The notes under the pieces were generated by a model. That model was given only the letters and a program-made list of their open reading frames with translations. It did no database searches and was not told the DNA's origin. From Candidatus Woesearchaeota archaeon (GTDB lineage Archaea; Nanobdellota; Nanobdellia; Woesearchaeales; UBA12501), in contig JAUSFM010000004.1 in the NCBI GenBank assembly GCA_030651375.1, forward strand, positions 1-52,110: a stretch of 52,110 bases of DNA, given 5' to 3'. The translations under genes and the position numbers were made by a program. Shown here piece after piece: positions 13,541-22,259 of the stretch; within the stretch, counting starts at the first letter, position 1, and every line of letters starts with the position of its first letter.

Positions 13541-14455
13541 ATGAAACGAAAACTCGTTCGCCATGGAAACACAAGTCTGACGGTTTCTCTTCCAAAAAAA
13601 TGGACTGATACCTTTCATCTTCAGAAAGGAGATGAAATTGAGCTTACTCCTCATGAAGACCAGATTATTCTTCAAGCAAGAGCAGGGAAAAAACCTGCAA
13701 AAAAAGGAACCTTGGATATTTCTCAACTCGGCTCATTAACTCGGCGGGCGTTTGATGCCATGTACAAATCAGGATACGATGAAGTTGAGGTGCTCTATAC
13801 CAACCACCGCCAGCTTGGCGATGTTGAGCAGGCCATTGCGCTTGAAGCAATGACCTTTGAAATTGTCAAGCAAGAAAAAAATCGTTGTGTTGTCAAGGAT
13901 ATTTCAGAAGCAGAGACCAAAGAATTTGACGCACTGCTGCGAAGAACGGTTCTTCTCCTCAAAGTAATGGGTGAAGACCTCCTTGTTGCGCTCAAAGAGC
14001 GGGATTTTGAAACCATCCTCCTCATTCGAGACCTTGAAAAAACAAACAACAAATTCACTCATTTTTGCCGGCGGGCGCTGGCAATCAACGGCTATCCTGA
14101 TCGCGGAAAAACAGTGTTTTTATACACGATTGTTGAACAGCTTGAAACCTGCGCTGACGAATTCAAATTTCTGTGCGACTATCTTGTTCAGCATCAGAAA
14201 CTAAAAATCTCAAAAGAAGTCCTTGATCTTTTCCAGCAGGTCAATGCCACGATCGCTCTTTTTACCGAGCTCTTTTTGAAACATGACATTGAGAACGCGA
14301 AAAAACTGAACGATCTTAGAAAAAAAACAATCACCTCTGCCTTCTCGCTTTTTGAGGCAACGAAAGACCAGCAAAAAATTATCATTCATTATTTAATCAA
14401 TATTGAAAGCATGGTGTTTGGCATGCTCGGGCCTTATCTTGCAACGGTGCTCTGA
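13541..14455 (+). CDS. AbrB-PhoU family phosphate/transport regulator
   Basis: 304 residues. Residues 1-45 are a SpoVT/AbrB swapped-hairpin DNA-binding domain (MKRKLVRHGNTSLTVSLPKK, then KGDEIELTPHED). The remainder is all helical and fits tandem PhoU repeats (for example VEQLETCADEFKFLCDYL). Archaeal proteins of this design are annotated as phosphate uptake regulators; no Pst transporter is in the window, so the target is unknown. The start is chosen by the TATA box GTATATATACC at 13510-13520, about 26 bp upstream. Its last 22 bp overlap the convergent giant gene. Confidence 0.82.
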   Translation: MKRKLVRHGNTSLTVSLPKKWTDTFHLQKGDEIELTPHEDQIILQARAGKKPAKKGTLDISQLGSLTRRAFDAMYKSGYDEVEVLYTNHRQLGDVEQAIALEAMTFEIVKQEKNRCVVKDISEAETKEFDALLRRTVLLLKVMGEDLLVALKERDFETILLIRDLEKTNNKFTHFCRRALAINGYPDRGKTVFLYTIVEQLETCADEFKFLCDYLVQHQKLKISKEVLDLFQQVNATIALFTELFLKHDIENAKKLNDLRKKTITSAFSLFEATKDQQKIIIHYLINIESMVFGMLGPYLATVL

Positions 14456-17400
14456 TTACTCTGATTCGACTCATTACTGCCTGCGGAAACTGTCTCTCTG
14501 CGTTGAGCATATGCCTCATGCAACCTTTTTTGAACCGAAGAAAGCTCATCCCGATCAACACCAACCAATCGCTGGGCGTGTAAGGCTGCCCAACTTTCTT
14601 GCGAACACTGCCAATAATGGTCTGCTTCTTCAAGGCTTCCTTTTCCCCGTGCTCCCATCTCATGAAGTATATTTCCTGCCTGCAACAGATTGCGGTGCAG
14701 GCGTGCAACAAGATACGCGAAATCAAACAGGGCAGGAGTATCCGGATTGATCACTTTTCGCGTCAGGCCTACACACTGTTCTTTCACCTCGGGCGCTACG
14801 TTCAACCCGTATGAATCAAGAAGCATTGCGTCATCAAATAACAGAACATCATATCTCAGATTGTTAAAATCAAATGAAACAACCTGCTCGCCGTCAATGG
14901 CAAGGTTACCGGCAAAATTATCACGCAGCCAACCATAATATTCACCGGGCAGAGTGGTAAGCATCCGGCCAACCGTGTTGGTATACGCTTTTAGAAACCC
15001 AGCATCTTCAAACCCAAGCGCCCGCATCACTCGCCACGCATACATCTGCTCACCAATTTCACTGCGGGACGCACGCTCTTCAAAATGCTCATACATGCTC
15101 TCAACCTGGCGTTCCTGCAAAAACACTTTTTCATCAGGGCGTAAGATGGTTTCCAGTGCACGGCTGATGGCAAGTCGCTGGTGTGTTGCCTGTACCAGAT
15201 ACTGTGCATACTGTGTTTCATCACGGCCCGGAGTTTGCGCATACGCCATCAGAGGAACGCCGGAATATTCCACCGTAAGCTCAGCTCCTGACATTGAAAT
15301 CGGTGTTGCAACAGAAAATTGTGAATGTTTTAACGCTTCAAGGACATTATATTCTATTTGGGTAATTCTTGCATCATCATTCACTTTGGTGACGATGCTT
15401 CGCCGCCCTGCACTTCTTGTTTTCTCTGACTCGACACTGAGTGTGTGCCACCGAACCTCTTCTGATCCGCGTCCGCGCATGACATCACTGTGGAGTATGA
15501 CCTTGACGAGCTGTCCTTCATCTCCTACAAATTGAAGTGTGGTCTCACCCTGGTTTTCGACATCACTTCCATCGGCAGTTTGCTCGTTAACCACCGCACC
15601 ATGGCGTGCATAGAGTTCAACTAAAAAAGCCAGTGTCCCTTGTGCCGGATCCAGTTTTTTAAACAAGTGGTGGGCTTGAGCATATTCTCGTGCGTCAATA
15701 TGTGCACCTGCTTCTTGGTACACTGCTGTTTTTAATTTTTCAGGAAGTTCACGCTGAAATTCCAATGGCCAATACATTTTAAACCAACGCCCGATCTCAT
15801 GCCCGTGTGCACGCAATGCTTCTGCTCCTCCACACAAGACGCGATACGAACGCAGGCGCGCCGCAGTTGTCATGTACGCATCAAACAGCTCAAAATCAAT
15901 TCCACTCTTCTCTTTTGTTTCTTTCTTCAATTCTCTCCCTATTTTTTGCTCCAGAAGTTTTTTTGCTTCCCGTAATTCTTCAGGCTCTTCTTCAATAAAC
16001 TGGGTGCAGCTTCGCACCAGGTTAATTTTTTGTGGTGCAGTCAACGTGTCATATCTGCCCAACAGCTCTGTTGCTTGTATCGACCACAACAAAGGAGAGT
16101 CATAGCCCATAATAATCCACTGCTCTCGTGCTTTCAGCAAGTCCCCTGTTTTGATATGCTCTGCCGATTGAAAGAACGCACTGGTTCGAGAGTGAATCAT
16201 ATGATACAGAAAACTATTGTTCCAGATTCGTTTTTCACGTGAGTAATCATTGTCAATCAATAATTGGGCAAACCGTTCCTGCCAACGCTGTAGTTCGTCA
16301 GGTTTCAAAAAAGTGTGTGGGTAACTGGTTTGTTCAAGGCGGCTATCAAGATGTTTCGAAGCCAGCGAGAATTGAGGGAAATAGCGCCCCATCACGGTTG
16401 CTAACAGAAGGTGGCTTCCGTCATGTTCGTCATGCGCACGCGTAACAATCGCTTCAGCAACCGCATAATCAACTGCCGGATCTCCCATGTATTTGGCAAG
16501 ATGTACTGCTGGATTAAAATGAAGCAGAATATCAAGGGGCATACCTCCTAATTCAGGAGGCGTTTGCTTCAGAATGCGTTCAGTGATGACTTCATCAACT
16601 ACATACTGCTTTATTGTAGCTATGCGAGCATCAATTGTTTCGGAGTGTTGTGTTCCGTTGGCGGATGGTGATTCTTTCTCATCTTCTGGTGTATCTTCTG
16701 TTCCTCCTTTCTTTTCTTGCATGCGCATGCGTGCATGCCACGTTAGAAAAAGAGATTCGACCAGCGGACTAAGGTGTGGATCAATGGGTTCATCAAACAG
16801 TTCTCGCCTGAATCCGCAATGATCCTTCAGCCCATGTTCTTCAATATGGCGCTCAACATTCATAACCTGCAGTTCAAGCACGTTTTCAAGCCCTTTTCTA
16901 TCTACTGTTTCATAACACAATTGAGCATACTTTCTTTGGTATTCGGCAAACGCGAATCCAACCGCACCAAACGCAAGGTCAGCACAGATATGTTTATACT
17001 TTTCTAACAACCGTGTTTTTTCCTTCACTCTCTCTTGCGGAGGATTTTGTTCTTCAATCGTCATCATCAGCATGCGAAGGCCCAATGCGAACTCTGCATA
17101 GGGATCAGACGAAGAATCAAATGGATCAATCAGTTTTCCATATGCACCAGCCCACATCTGTGTTTTTTCAAGGCGTTGGTGTTTCGGTTCCTGTGCCTCA
17201 TAGGCAACATCCGCTCCCACGAGCAAAAGCGAATCAATGACAGAAGCCCCTAACGCAAACGCAGGAAACAGCATCGAGGTTTCATCCCGCATGCTGAACG
17301 CGTGGGCATTTCGCGTGAGGTCCCAGCTAAATTCGTAACAAAACGCGCGATCAATTTCCTTTCGTGCCGCTTCTCCAAAATCAGGAAAATCTTCGCCAAG

Positions 17401-17910
17401 AGCATGGTGATGTGCCCGTTGGTAAAATGTATCTGCAACCTCTGCAGGAAGATGCGTGATGCGTATAAACTCGTCAAGCACTGCGCGCGTTTCTTCCTTG
17501 GTGCTTGCAAGGCTCAATTGGGCCTGAAGACCCTGCAAAAATTCAGCAACCTCTGCTTCTTTTGGCGTTAAAAAACCAGCGAGCATGCTTTTTTGCTCAT
17601 CCGGAGGAAGGACGCTGAGCGCTACGACCTGTCCGGGTTGTTTATCATCTTCTGAGCCTGCTTCAGAATCTTTACCATTAAAAGAATAAAACACTTTTGG
17701 GTGTTCATCTGGAAAAAGAAAATGAAGCATTTTTTGAACAGGATACATCACGCGTTGACCATCCCATCTTCCTTCACTTGCAAGAACAATATATGCACCA
17801 TCCGTCATTGTTTGTGCGGAATATTTTCTTCTCAACACCGGGTCTTCGAGGCGAAGGCCGTGCGGAAGCATGTACTGCAGGTGTCTGATAACGCGGGCAT
17901 CAAGGGACAT
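14434..17910 (-). CDS. Giant protein (1158 aa) with APH/kinase-like C-terminal domain
   Basis: Residues 1 to about 790 are soluble, mostly helical and match no family I recognise; an acidic insert lies near 430 (EDTPEDEKESPS). Residues about 800-1120 resemble the aminoglycoside-phosphotransferase/protein-kinase fold: an N-lobe with a candidate lysine (SIVTKVND), a catalytic-loop-like LRDNFAGNLAID (D997, N1002, the D-x4-N spacing of that fold), then SFDFNN (D1014) in the metal-binding position. A Ser/Asn-rich tail ends the protein. A TATA box (GGTTTATAAGG) lies 27 bp before the leaderless ATG. The substrate is unknown; it could be a small-molecule or protein kinase. Confidence 0.65.
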   Translation of the reverse strand: MSLDARVIRHLQYMLPHGLRLEDPVLRRKYSAQTMTDGAYIVLASEGRWDGQRVMYPVQKMLHFLFPDEHPKVFYSFNGKDSEAGSEDDKQPGQVVALSVLPPDEQKSMLAGFLTPKEAEVAEFLQGLQAQLSLASTKEETRAVLDEFIRITHLPAEVADTFYQRAHHHALGEDFPDFGEAARKEIDRAFCYEFSWDLTRNAHAFSMRDETSMLFPAFALGASVIDSLLLVGADVAYEAQEPKHQRLEKTQMWAGAYGKLIDPFDSSSDPYAEFALGLRMLMMTIEEQNPPQERVKEKTRLLEKYKHICADLAFGAVGFAFAEYQRKYAQLCYETVDRKGLENVLELQVMNVERHIEEHGLKDHCGFRRELFDEPIDPHLSPLVESLFLTWHARMRMQEKKGGTEDTPEDEKESPSANGTQHSETIDARIATIKQYVVDEVITERILKQTPPELGGMPLDILLHFNPAVHLAKYMGDPAVDYAVAEAIVTRAHDEHDGSHLLLATVMGRYFPQFSLASKHLDSRLEQTSYPHTFLKPDELQRWQERFAQLLIDNDYSREKRIWNNSFLYHMIHSRTSAFFQSAEHIKTGDLLKAREQWIIMGYDSPLLWSIQATELLGRYDTLTAPQKINLVRSCTQFIEEEPEELREAKKLLEQKIGRELKKETKEKSGIDFELFDAYMTTAARLRSYRVLCGGAEALRAHGHEIGRWFKMYWPLEFQRELPEKLKTAVYQEAGAHIDAREYAQAHHLFKKLDPAQGTLAFLVELYARHGAVVNEQTADGSDVENQGETTLQFVGDEGQLVKVILHSDVMRGRGSEEVRWHTLSVESEKTRSAGRRSIVTKVNDDARITQIEYNVLEALKHSQFSVATPISMSGAELTVEYSGVPLMAYAQTPGRDETQYAQYLVQATHQRLAISRALETILRPDEKVFLQERQVESMYEHFEERASRSEIGEQMYAWRVMRALGFEDAGFLKAYTNTVGRMLTTLPGEYYGWLRDNFAGNLAIDGEQVVSFDFNNLRYDVLLFDDAMLLDSYGLNVAPEVKEQCVGLTRKVINPDTPALFDFAYLVARLHRNLLQAGNILHEMGARGKGSLEEADHYWQCSQESWAALHAQRLVGVDRDELSSVQKRLHEAYAQRRETVSAGSNESNQSNQSTVAR

Positions 17911-17987: not shown

Positions 17988-20510
17988 CTACGCTTCCCGT
18001 AATTCCTTCAGAAACCGTTCAGTCGTCTTGACGAGGTGCTCGGGCTGGGTCTTATAGATGTCGCAGAGTTTCATCAGTATGTCCTTTTCGCTGCCAGAAT
18101 ATTCGTCGGTGCTGCACAGCTCTTTGTCACCTGTTTTTTTCTTTTTCACTACATCTTTCCACTTGGTGAACAGTTCTTCGGCGCGGCTGGGCACCTGCGC
18201 AATGGCACAGGCGAGCAGGCGCGCGACCTGCTCAAGAATTGTGTGTTCATGGCGCTCTTCCTGCTGTGCAGCGCCGCCGGCAGTGTAGGTCAGCCGAACC
18301 ACCCCATCTTGCACTTTTGCGGAGCTGAGCATTTTTATTTTTCCAACGTCAGCGGTGTTCGTGAGGTGTGTTCCGCCGCAGCACTCAACATCAATTTCCG
18401 GAATTTCAACAATGCGTAAATCTTTGCCGGGAACTGCGCCGCCCTGATAGATGGTCATGCCGAATTTTTTTTCTGCCTCATCGCGCGCAAAAAATCCGAG
18501 GCGTACCGGCATTCGTTCATGGACAATACGATTTGCTTCATCTTCAATTTTCTTCAGTTCCTCTTCAGTCACTGATTCATAATGCGTGATGTCAATATGC
18601 GCTTTTTCGGTTGTCTTTTTCGAGCCGGCTTGGTTGATATGGCTGCCGAGTATCCTCCGCGCCGCAGCGCCAACAATGTGGGTTGCCGTGTGGTGCTGGG
18701 CAAGTTGTTTCCGCCGCTCAAAATCAACCGCACATTCAACGGTTTCTCCAGCGACAAACCGTGTTGGCTCATGCTCAAGTACGTGCACAATCTTGCTTCC
18801 CTGCTTGAATACATCAACCACGCCGTAGCCGCCGAGTGTTCCGATGTCATGCAGCTGGCCGCCGGATGTTGGGTAAAAAACAGTTTTGTCCAGCACGACC
18901 TTGTTTCCGATAATTTTAATTACTTTTCCTTGGCTCGTTGTTTTGCGCCAGTCATCAAAGTACAATGCTTTGGTGTCCGGTACGTCATCAAGGTCAAGCT
19001 GTTCCTTTTTTTTCGTTGCGTGCTCCTGTTCCATTTGCGTGTGGCGCTCTGCCACCAGCGCATAAAAGTTTTCTGGCACATTCGCCGTGATGCCTGCCTG
19101 TGCAGCTTCCTCGCGCACGAGTTCTGGGGCAATACCATTTGAATCGTAGAGTTCAAGCAATTTTTCCGTGGTCAAGTTTTCTTTTTTTGCGATGAGGTGG
19201 GCAACAATGGATTTTGTTTTTTGTTTTGTGTTTTCATACCGGTTTTTTTCAACTTCAAGAATTTTCTGCACACCGTCAAGGTGTTCGCTGACCTCGGGGA
19301 ACAATGGTTTCAAATACTCTGCGTGCCAGTCGCAGATCGTGGGAAGGTCAAGTTCCCATCCATACTGGTCAATAAACGCGAGCGCCCTGCGGAGAATCAC
19401 GCGCAGGTTGTATCCGCCGGCAGTATTTGACGGCAATGCTCCGTCGCTCAGCGAAACGAGCAATGAGCGCGCATGTTCCCCGACTGAAAACAGCGCGGCA
19501 AGCGGAAGAATTTTTGCCTTGAGCTCTTTGGCATCAACGCCGACTTTGTCAGCGACAAATTGCCATGTTTTGTTGATGTCTTCAACCTCGTCGATGTTTA
19601 GATACGATGAATACGGCAGGAACCGCTGGATGAGCTCCTTGTTTTTTTTCGTCGTGTCAATGCCGGTTGCGTGGAACAGTTTTTTGCACACCGTCGGAAA
19701 CGTTGTTTCATAACTTGTTGCCGTGCCCTGCGTGAACCACGCGTTGCGCTCGTGGCCCATGCCCATGTCCAGCACACGGAGATTCAAGGGCTTCGGCCCG
19801 CTGGGCGCGTTTTCAAACATCATGTACACCTGATTGCCCAGCTCAAGGCCCCGTGAAAAAAATTCCATGCACGGCCCGAAATTTCCGCCGCCTGCCCACG
19901 CGTCCTCGTGGAACGTGATTTCATTGTTCGGCAATCCAAGTCCCTGCGTCAGCCACGTATGAATGTCTCTGAAATATTGCGCTTGATCCCATTCTTTTTC
20001 CGTGACAAACGCGTGCTGGCCAATCATCACAAAGCCAGTATAGTGTGCGCCGGTAATGCCGACGTTGTCAATGTCGTTGAATCTCAAACAGAACTGCGGC
20101 ACGACCAGCTTTTTTGCAGGTGGCTTCACTTCGCCGCTGACGACGTAGGGTTGAAAATCGTAAATTGATGCCTGCACGAAATCAGTGTCATCTCTCCATC
20201 TCGCTACAACCGGATAGCGGTCGATGGGAGTGTAACCGAGTTTCTTGAACAACTTTGAAAATTCCTGCCATGTTTCGATATAATCCATCTTCTTTTTTGC
20301 CGGGCTCGTTCCGAAGAAGCCGAATCCGCCGGCGCATGCCGGGTCGCCGCAATGCATTTGGCCGACATTGACGCTCCAGAACCAGGTGCCACAGGCGCAT
20401 TGCCTTCGGCAGAATCCCTGCTCTTTCAGCACGCCAACTGCGTAATATTTTTCTGGATTCTGCGACGCGGTTTTTTTGAATTCTTTTTTGGTTTCCTTGT
20501 CGGTGGGCAT
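17988..20510 (-). CDS. alaS: Alanyl-tRNA synthetase (archaeal type)
   Basis: 840 residues. It charges tRNA-Ala. The cysteine-rich N-terminal extension typical of archaeal AlaRS is present (QGFCRRQCACGTWFWSVNVG, then HCGDPACAGGFGFFG). The class II catalytic core follows (about 60-450; FCLRFNDIDNVG, FHEDAWAGGGNFGPCMEFF). The editing domain has its metal motif HHTATHIVGAA and the partner CCGGTHL. The C-terminal dimerisation/C-Ala part is short, so the protein is somewhat below the common archaeal length near 900. The ATG is about 28 bp after a TATA box (CTTTTTAAACG, minus strand). Confidence 0.96.
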   Translation of the reverse strand: MPTDKETKKEFKKTASQNPEKYYAVGVLKEQGFCRRQCACGTWFWSVNVGQMHCGDPACAGGFGFFGTSPAKKKMDYIETWQEFSKLFKKLGYTPIDRYPVVARWRDDTDFVQASIYDFQPYVVSGEVKPPAKKLVVPQFCLRFNDIDNVGITGAHYTGFVMIGQHAFVTEKEWDQAQYFRDIHTWLTQGLGLPNNEITFHEDAWAGGGNFGPCMEFFSRGLELGNQVYMMFENAPSGPKPLNLRVLDMGMGHERNAWFTQGTATSYETTFPTVCKKLFHATGIDTTKKNKELIQRFLPYSSYLNIDEVEDINKTWQFVADKVGVDAKELKAKILPLAALFSVGEHARSLLVSLSDGALPSNTAGGYNLRVILRRALAFIDQYGWELDLPTICDWHAEYLKPLFPEVSEHLDGVQKILEVEKNRYENTKQKTKSIVAHLIAKKENLTTEKLLELYDSNGIAPELVREEAAQAGITANVPENFYALVAERHTQMEQEHATKKKEQLDLDDVPDTKALYFDDWRKTTSQGKVIKIIGNKVVLDKTVFYPTSGGQLHDIGTLGGYGVVDVFKQGSKIVHVLEHEPTRFVAGETVECAVDFERRKQLAQHHTATHIVGAAARRILGSHINQAGSKKTTEKAHIDITHYESVTEEELKKIEDEANRIVHERMPVRLGFFARDEAEKKFGMTIYQGGAVPGKDLRIVEIPEIDVECCGGTHLTNTADVGKIKMLSSAKVQDGVVRLTYTAGGAAQQEERHEHTILEQVARLLACAIAQVPSRAEELFTKWKDVVKKKKTGDKELCSTDEYSGSEKDILMKLCDIYKTQPEHLVKTTERFLKELREA

Positions 20511-20609
20511 GGAACAAGAAATCTATTTGTCGTTTAAAAAGTTAGTGGAAGAAGTGATTGTGTTTTGAAAGCAGATACTTTTATAAGCAACTTCTTTTTC
20601 CCTCTGTTT

Positions 20610-21155
20610 ATGAATCTTAGATCTGTTGTACTGACGGGAGTGACTGAAGCAGAATTTTTGCGATTGCATCAGGCCCATTACGAAAGACCATGGGAAGATC
20701 GTGGCTCAAACTACCTGTTTGCGAAAGTCGTACAAGCACGAGCATATCTTGACTATAAAGCGCTCCTCACTGAATTTCGCAGTCAACCTCATGCTTTTCG
20801 TGTTGCTTTCTTTAATCCAGAAAAAAATGAGAACCGTGGAGCTTGGGAGCATGTTTCTCTTGACATGCTTACCGACGAATCAATAGCGCGAATAAGTGAA
20901 GTTGCTCAACCAAACCCATTTCAAAAAAGTTCTCTTGAGTTAGTATATTGGAATCCCCAATATAAATCGTACCATTCCACCCGAACACTAACCATTGGAA
21001 TTGAAAAAAGAGATGGGTATATTGTTCCTTGCAGAGTTTTTGTTCCCAAAGGATACGGTTCTGAAGTTTCATGGAATGGACGACCCCTTTTTCCCGGCAG
21101 AAACAACCGCGTTCTCGCACTGACCGATCCGGCGCATCTTGACGTACGGCTCTAA
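20610..21155 (+). CDS. Hypothetical protein
   Basis: 181 residues, soluble. It starts MNLRSVVLTGVTEAEFLRLH and has a beta-rich C-terminal half (HSTRTLTIGIEKRDGYIVPC, then PKGYGSEVSWNGRPLFPG). No family is recognised. The ATG follows the TATA box ACTTTTATAAGC at 20577-20588 by about 27 bp, fitting a leaderless message, and the gene is divergent from alaS. Confidence 0.55.
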   Translation: MNLRSVVLTGVTEAEFLRLHQAHYERPWEDRGSNYLFAKVVQARAYLDYKALLTEFRSQPHAFRVAFFNPEKNENRGAWEHVSLDMLTDESIARISEVAQPNPFQKSSLELVYWNPQYKSYHSTRTLTIGIEKRDGYIVPCRVFVPKGYGSEVSWNGRPLFPGRNNRVLALTDPAHLDVRL

Positions 21156-21226
21156 AACACTCCCTTTTTCGCCTGAACCCTCTTTTCAAGAAAAACTTTA
21201 TATTCTCGAGCTGCTTCACCTGCCGT

Positions 21227-21370
21227 ATGAAGAAAGGCATGGCCTGCATGATATGCGAAGCCGGCATTGGCCGGTTTACCTGTGACCTCTGCGGTTTGCT
21301 TGCCTGCGCAGACTGTTTTGACCGCGCGAAGAATATGTGCGTGCAATGCAGTGGCGGGAGACGGGTATAA
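21227..21370 (+). CDS. Small protein with four CxxC knuckles (47 residues)
   Basis: The translation contains four CxxC pairs: C7-C10 (ACMICEAG), C19-C22 (TCDLCGLL), C27-C30 (ACADCFDR) and C38-C41 (MCVQCSGG). Eight regularly spaced cysteines in 47 residues imply two zinc ions in a cross-brace or tandem ribbon, as in B-box/RING-like mini-domains. A TATA box (ACTTTATATTC near 21195-21205) lies about 27 bp before the ATG. A protein- or nucleic-acid-binding role is likely; no specific family is claimed. Confidence 0.7.
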   Translation: MKKGMACMICEAGIGRFTCDLCGLLACADCFDRAKNMCVQCSGGRRV

Positions 21371-21402
21371 CAATTCTAAAAAAAGAAGAAAAAATAAATT
21401 AA

Positions 21403-21786
21403 TTATCGAAGAGTTCTTTCAAGGCCGCCTTCTCTTGTTTCAACCCGTGTTCTCTGTCCGCCTCGCCGTTCATACACTCCAGTTGGACCTTGGTATTCGA
21501 CAGGGCGTCGAGCTTGTGCAGCTTGCGCATACACATCATCCTTTCTTTCACCAGAAGGAAGAGCTGGTAATCCTTGTTCTTTTCTTATTCGCAGGTAGAC
21601 TTCTTCTCGGTGTATCGGGTACTCTACTCTATTGTCTACCGGTTTTCCGGTTTTTGCGTCAAGAATTTCAATGCCCACCCGTGTTTGTCTTCCCCGTACT
21701 TCACGAGTTATATACCTCACTAAATATTGTCCTCCTGGAAGAGGCATAACAATTGATTCCCCTGGTTTTCTTGTTACTGTCAACAT
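21403..21786 (-). CDS. csrA: CsrA-like RNA-binding protein with basic C-terminal extension
   Basis: 127 residues. Residues 1-72 follow the whole CsrA pattern: MLTVTRKPGESIVM, then VRGRQTRVGIEI, then PIHREEVYLRIRKEQG. The RNA-contacting positions of bacterial CsrA are conserved (L2-x-x-T-R near the start and the R of HREE). Compared with bacterial CsrA there are a few extra residues in the first hairpin and about nine before the HREE strand. Residues 73-127 form a Q/R/G-rich, probably disordered tail. The ATG at 21786 gives the canonical N-terminus, with GGAGTG upstream, so it is chosen over a GTG three codons earlier. CsrA normally binds GGA motifs in mRNA leaders; a target here is unknown. 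Confidence 0.85.
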   Translation of the reverse strand: MLTVTRKPGESIVMPLPGGQYLVRYITREVRGRQTRVGIEILDAKTGKPVDNRVEYPIHREEVYLRIRKEQGLPALPSGERKDDVYAQAAQARRPVEYQGPTGVYERRGGQRTRVETREGGLERTLR

Positions 21787-21857
21787 TCTCAGCACACTCC
21801 ATATTGTTTTTACTGTTATTTCTCTTGCGCGAAACAGAAATATATAAAAGTATCTTT

Positions 21858-22259
21858 TTATACTGCGTCATCCCAAATAAGACATCTGACTTCCGTGACT
21901 GTTCGCTCAAAATCATCTTTGGTAAACCTGCTGACGTCGCTAAATCGCGCATTTGCTTCTTGAGCAATCTCATCGAGCCGTTGCACACGCCACTGGTTTT
22001 CAAGAGTGACAACATCTTGATACACTGTTGCCGGGAAGCGTTCTTCGTATCTTTTTATTGGACGGTCTCTAAACGAGCGTGCAACTCTCTCCAAATTACC
22101 CCGCTCAAGTATCATTCCTTTGCCAATATATTCATTGAAATAATCCTGGCTCATTCCTGTTCCTGGCCATATTTGGGGTATCTGTTCCATGCAGATGGTA
22201 TTCCGGCGTTGCTTATTAACCTTTCCAAACTGTTTTTTCCGTGTACGAGGTTCAGACAT
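21858..22259 (-). CDS. Hypothetical protein upstream of the CsrA-like gene
   Basis: 133 residues, highly charged, soluble, mostly helical (GNLERVARSFRDRPIKRYEE, then NQWRVQRLDEIAQEANARFS), basic N-terminus (RTRKKQFGKVNKQRR). No family is recognised. It precedes the CsrA-like gene on the same strand by 71 bp. A TATA-like CTTTTATATATTTC lies between them, so they may be separate transcripts. The N-terminal basic patch could contact RNA or DNA. Confidence 0.5.
   Translation of the reverse strand: MSEPRTRKKQFGKVNKQRRNTICMEQIPQIWPGTGMSQDYFNEYIGKGMILERGNLERVARSFRDRPIKRYEERFPATVYQDVVTLENQWRVQRLDEIAQEANARFSDVSRFTKDDFERTVTEVRCLIWDDAV

Follow-up and report, generated by a model that had tools for sequence, protein, structure and literature searches.

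A divergent CsrA/RsmA-family protein, apparently acquired by horizontal transfer, in a Woesearchaeota-type DPANN archaeon

Introduction

CsrA is a textbook global regulator of bacteria. It forms a dimer in which strands β1 and β5 are intertwined, and recognises GGA at the Shine-Dalgarno site or in the loops of hairpins; RNA binding needs R44, and L4 matters as well (PMC7652899, PMC7366521). One member of the family, RsmN/RsmF, carries a structural rearrangement (PMC7366521). A 2020 survey detected CsrA exclusively in eubacterial chromosomes and foresaw remote archaeal homologues (PMC7366521), and csrA transcripts are mentioned in passing in a survey of ultra-small microbes (PMC9938205). We found no other paper on CsrA in DPANN archaea in the open-access literature, although databases may contain archaeal proteins annotated automatically as CsrA.

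Here we describe a csrA-family gene in a 52,110-nucleotide stretch of a Woesearchaeota genome (the whole of this stretch is hereafter called the window). Our reading, to which we give a probability of about 0.7, is that its product belongs to the CsrA/RsmA family as a divergent member, that this Woesearchaeota-type DPANN archaeon acquired it horizontally and that it most likely works like bacterial CsrA.

Results

A divergent CsrA homologue

The gene occupies 21403-21786 of the minus strand, running from the ATG at 21786-21784 through 127 codons to the stop at 21405-21403; read on the plus strand, this interval is interrupted by stop codons. The first-pass annotation had recognised CsrA in the N-terminal 72 residues, quoting the peptides MLTVTRKPGES and HREEVYLRI, which are indeed residues 1-11 and 59-67. 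Profile searches agree with this assignment: CsrA is the top match of the protein in Pfam, NCBIfam, PHROGs and, by sequence, the PDB. The NCBIfam model NF002469 (PRK01712 CsrA) aligns residues 1-72 to its positions 1-56 (E = 1.8e-5), PHROG 9500 ('CsrA-like regulator') matches with E = 2.8e-5, and the best single-sequence matches in the PDB are solved CsrA chains, with weak scores. The suggested comparison with PF02599 had a mixed outcome, as the E value is 1.6e-5 but the score of 25.2 bits falls about 2 bits short of the curated Pfam cut-off of 27 bits. Together with the alignment and the order of elements in an AlphaFold2 (AF2) model, these matches delimit a CsrA domain (β1 to β5 and the start of helix H1) at 21571-21786 on the minus strand.

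As the NCBIfam csrA equivalog cut-offs are missed (24.6 vs 73 bits for NF002469 and 18.7 vs 70.1 bits for TIGR00202), we file the protein as a divergent CsrA-family homologue and not as a csrA orthologue. The curated cut-offs are probably missed because two loops are longer, namely the β2-β3 loop and an insertion of 11 residues ahead of β5. A leave-one-out profile, built from 12 other archaeal CsrAs (see below) with the window protein excluded, was run against the 1013 six-frame ORFs of the window and retrieved csrA as the sole significant one (E = 1.2e-7, the runner-up being at 1.4). When the window protein is included, the archaeal CsrA profile matches solved CsrA/RsmA chains at 1.5e-19 and RsmN/RsmF (4kji, 4k59) at about 1e-10. 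In RsmN, a helix has come to lie between earlier strands, whereas the window protein has its insertion between β4 and β5, and H1 stays at the end. Judged from these sequence comparisons, the window ORF is real and its product is a divergent homologue of CsrA.

The nearest homologue found is carried by another genome of the same order, Candidatus Woesearchaeota UBA10194 (G102; contig DUFZ01000010.1, locus L048), with 44% identity over 75 residues and E = 2e-10 in a single BLASTP comparison. It is followed by a CsrA from the Candidate Phyla Radiation (CPR), that of Candidatus Magasanikbacteria UBA10197 (L049; E = 8e-10, again as a single comparison). Over the domain columns used for the tree, identity is 48% with the UBA10194 protein and 37% with the Magasanikbacteria one. 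These two nearest relatives found have the start LT[VL]TRK.GESI in common with the window protein, which alone of the three has the β4-β5 insertion; the tails differ.

Conserved residues, insertions and predicted structure

As in E. coli CsrA, Pseudomonas RsmA/RsmE and Geobacillus CsrA, the protein is small, and its match spans the five-strand and helix core from the first residue to H1. The alignment shows that the CsrA invariants M1, L2, R6, I12 and R60 are retained, as is E62. R6 (codon at 21769-21771, minus strand) is invariant in the CsrA alignment and lies in the β1 RNA-contact strand, and R60 (codon at 21607-21609, minus strand), also invariant, occupies the β5/H1 junction and corresponds to E. 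coli R44, which RNA binding requires. By contrast, position 4 is V4 instead of the L4 of CsrA, a conservative change. Further differences from the described family are the archaeal host, the scores below curated cut-offs, the two expanded loops and a tail of 55 residues. The inserted loop noticed ahead of the HREE strand in the first-pass annotation proves to be the 11 residues between β4 and β5 (AKTGKPVDNRV, about residues 44-54; 21625-21657, minus strand), a gap in every other row of the alignment, and it is accompanied by an extended β2-β3 loop (about residues 15-19; 21730-21744, minus strand), which is partly common to the UBA10194 protein. The tail (residues 73-127; 21406-21570, minus strand) is predicted with low confidence or disordered (pLDDT 41-76 by block). 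It had been described as rich in Q and R and untypical of CsrA; the tail is there, but it is rich in R, G, Q and E, and long tails are present in several bacterial, viral and archaeal CsrAs.

An AF2 monomer model of the window protein, computed from an alignment of 22 sequences, has strands at 11-15, 21-31 and 34-43 and a helix at 61-70; across most of residues 11-50 and 61-70 its pLDDT is about 90 or higher. As a control, a canonical CPR CsrA was modelled from the same rows, and it has strands at 11-14, 18-26 and 29-35 and a helix at 45-58. The β2-β3-β4-helix order, which is that of the CsrA/RsmA family, is thus equal in both models, offset by the insertions. In Foldseek searches of the PDB, the window monomer matched no CsrA, whereas the control matched CsrA structures at 1e-5. 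The idea that monomers of swapped dimers cannot match the PDB is thereby refuted, and the missing match counts against the window model. Against BFVD, a viral library, the window model finds a phage CsrA as its top Foldseek match (probability 1.00, E = 6.6e-3), other CsrAs ranking 3, 7 and 16. At the level of the monomer, the fold check proposed earlier therefore had a mixed outcome, with element order and the viral library in favour of a CsrA fold and the PDB against.

Genomic context

The source is a metagenome-type assembly. The csrA gene is surrounded by alaS (17988-20510), Pop5, psmA, SBDS, rrp4, rrp41 and, farther off, TFB, each of which matches its Pfam family, so that the contig is archaeal on both sides, as first noted. 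The genome (1.30 Mb in 23 contigs) is 100% complete and 0.9% contaminated, and its 16S rRNA is archaeal. From the flanks, the genome quality and the 16S rRNA, we conclude that csrA sits in an archaeal chromosome. The exosome genes are about 2 kb away, an arrangement reminiscent of the csrA insertions between SBDS and rrp4 in related genomes (see below), but they are on the opposite strand with genes in between, and we claim no link between csrA and the exosome operon from proximity.

Two orphan ORFs flank csrA, at 20565-21155 (196 aa, ORF196) and 21858-22259 (133 aa, ORF133), neither having a Pfam match above cut-off. No relative of ORF133 was found in 39 other near genomes, and a pattern search of IMG/VR contigs returned none for either ORF. 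Downstream of alaS, an ORF of 1158 aa at 14434-17910 also has a low third-codon GC (GC3), 0.41.

Origin of the gene

The GC3 of csrA is 0.27, vs a mean of 0.516 (s.d. 0.089) among 392 chunks of csrA length taken from about 230 kb of the window genome, none of which is as low. ORF196 (0.32) and ORF133 (0.40) also lie below the neighbouring genes (about 0.55). Since csrA and both flanking ORFs are low in GC3 and ORF133 has no relative in the 39 near genomes, a small block at 20565-22259 was probably acquired. It comprises the three genes (ORF196 on the plus strand, csrA and ORF133 on the minus strand) and is bordered by alaS on one side and a methyltransferase gene on the other. None of 59 other near genomes, of which nine belong to the same family, yielded a csrA homologue, and a search of genome contigs with the window protein as single query returned no relatives. 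Foreign GC3 and absence from near relatives indicate that the window csrA was acquired horizontally, from a bacterium or via a mobile element.

With only 61 columns, a tree of 43 CsrA domains is poorly resolved. It groups the window protein with the UBA10194 and Magasanikbacteria CsrAs and with two CsrAs of Deltaproteobacteria/Myxococcota (support 93/93), and a single archaeal CsrA clade is rejected (p-AU 0.003). By this grouping, CPR and Myxococcota/Deltaproteobacteria are candidate donors. The Magasanikbacteria csrA (L049:3488-3685) has itself a third-codon GC of 0.87, vs 0.36-0.54 in its neighbours, and from this deviation it looks recently transferred too. The two origins left open in the first-pass annotation thus fare differently: for the window gene, composition, the 59 near genomes without it and the grouping with bacterial CsrAs speak for transfer from bacteria, whereas a distinct archaeal branch is contradicted as a single clade and is partly right elsewhere in the phylum.

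CsrA elsewhere in the phylum

Searches over the phylum, the order, the class and one family found CsrA homologues in 14 further genomes, six genomes passing the PF02599 cut-off in one of these searches. The homologue of genome G591, on a 206 kb contig, reaches 89.5 bits, and that of UBA10194, which is without the β4-β5 insertion, 49.5 bits. In four genomes, csrA is located between SBDS and rrp4 in a psmA-SBDS-rrp4-rrp41-rrp42 operon (L083:7103-9789 in G591, L034:1002-3413 in G220, L033:2217-4845 in G372 and L084:2725-4448 in G624), G220 having two copies there. By eye, these exosome-operon CsrAs have in common a helical-looking C-terminal tail (Y..A...L.....P....L..L..GL). More divergent copies are found after S19e and before L39e/L31e (L086:1626-3303 in G263, L085:202-1978 as a second copy in G372, L037:8883-10569 in G385, L092:1097-2511 in G655 and L093:1077-2541 in G246), in five genera of one DPANN family; S19e and L31e were confirmed by Pfam in G263, while L39e, and the genes of this operon in the remaining genomes, were named by eye. 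Finally, csrA is near L21e and Rpb4 in two genomes (G386 and G481), and a homologue in G443 (L047:3006-3329) is another loop-expanded archaeal CsrA, with a long β3-β4 insertion.

The codon composition of csrA agrees with that of its neighbours in G591 and G220, so that these copies look old and resident. As the exosome-operon copies all come from one genus, and the operon-embedded copies all from one family (f96), they represent few independent events. The existence of the exosome-operon copies and of the archaeal-only S19e-operon group implies that archaea hold several CsrA lineages.

Leaders and regulatory partners

The 16S rRNA tail of the window genome is GGATCACCTCC, in which the anti-Shine-Dalgarno CCUCC is intact, and Shine-Dalgarno sites with GGAG are therefore possible. 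Shine-Dalgarno-like motifs are enriched upstream of starts in this genome (0.18 vs 0.05). The csrA leader itself has, 10 nt before the ATG, a Shine-Dalgarno-like GGAG (21797-21800, minus strand), which includes a GGA motif, and inspection suggests a putative archaeal TATA-box-like site, TTTATATA, about 54 nt before the ATG (21841-21848, minus strand). Folding of this leader puts GGA in no stable predicted hairpin loop. A survey of leaders for GGA hairpins, which had been proposed as a check, gave no excess: with approximate starts, such leaders make up 3.2% in the window genome vs 7.2% and 3.1% in two relatives that lack csrA, and there is accordingly no regulon signal. A whole-genome search found no FliW, and an Rfam search of the window no known Csr sRNA, two further departures from the described CsrA/RsmA systems.

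Discussion

From its sequence, the window protein is probably an RNA-binding translational regulator, and its most likely function is that of a dimeric, GGA-binding regulator acting at Shine-Dalgarno sites. Two protomers would swap β1 and β5, giving a dimer with two RNA-binding faces around R6 and R60, and each face would recognise GGA in the leader of an mRNA. As the Shine-Dalgarno GGAG contains GGA, binding there would block the archaeal 30S subunit, and autoregulation could occur through the gene's own GGAG leader. The anti-Shine-Dalgarno in the 16S rRNA, the enrichment of Shine-Dalgarno-like motifs and the GGAG 10 nt before the ATG make such occlusion, autoregulation included, possible. 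Counting against this reading are the missed curated cut-offs, the window model without a CsrA match in the PDB, V4 in place of L4, the lack of FliW in the genome and of known Csr sRNAs in the window, the leaders without excess GGA hairpins, and the metagenome-type source of the assembly.

The most serious competitor, to which we nevertheless give less than a one-in-five chance in our own estimate, is a CsrA-derived protein which has kept the fold and been re-purposed: it would still bind RNA, perhaps without GGA specificity, its β4-β5 insertion and basic tail would contact other partners, and it would not repress by occluding Shine-Dalgarno sites. The divergent domain with its two loop insertions, the replacement of L4 by V4, the missed cut-offs, the model without a PDB fold match and the leaders without a GGA-hairpin signal would all fit such a protein. 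On the other hand, R6, I12, R60 and E62 are retained, and the UBA10194 homologue, which has no β4-β5 insertion, scores well above the PF02599 cut-off. Somewhat more doubtful is a recent arrival, still in transit, that belongs to a mobile element such as a virus or plasmid and serves this element (for example against host translation control) rather than the archaeon. csrA is frequent on viral contigs and on plasmids, and the foreign composition and orphan flanking ORFs of the window copy would agree with such an origin, but neither a viral hallmark nor an integrase was recognised in the immediate flanks of csrA, the orphan neighbours have no IMG/VR relatives by pattern search, and tblastn of the window CsrA against phage records gave no match.

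A bacterial csrA fragment misassembled or misbinned into an archaeal contig appears very improbable: the low-GC3 block is short and has no relative in the same family, but archaeal genes flank csrA on both sides of a single 52 kb contig, identity is highest with a Woesearchaeota CsrA, and other archaeal CsrAs, on contigs of 83-206 kb, form part of operons or gene clusters. Chance resemblance without any homology to CsrA is the least credible of all and has a negligible probability in our view; the individual database scores are weak, yet the leave-one-out profile, which separates csrA from every other ORF of the window, already contradicts it, as does the agreement of four databases on CsrA as top match. 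We thus retain a horizontally acquired CsrA homologue, working like its bacterial counterparts, as the preferred reading.

Taking the phylum as a whole, we tentatively suggest, while holding it to be rather less probable than its contrary, that DPANN archaea domesticated CsrA several times as a native layer of post-transcriptional control, placing copies in the exosome superoperon (SBDS-csrA-rrp4) and in a ribosomal operon (S19e-csrA-L39e-L31e), where it couples translation with RNA decay, and that the window gene is a further, recent case of this. The resident CsrAs in DPANN exosome and ribosomal operons are a more surprising part of the find than the window copy. The presence of CsrA in archaeal chromosomes, repeatedly and inside core archaeal operons, would make GGA-dependent translational control in archaea testable, and it would mean that a bacterial RNA regulator acts on an archaeal ribosome with the same CCUCC anti-Shine-Dalgarno.
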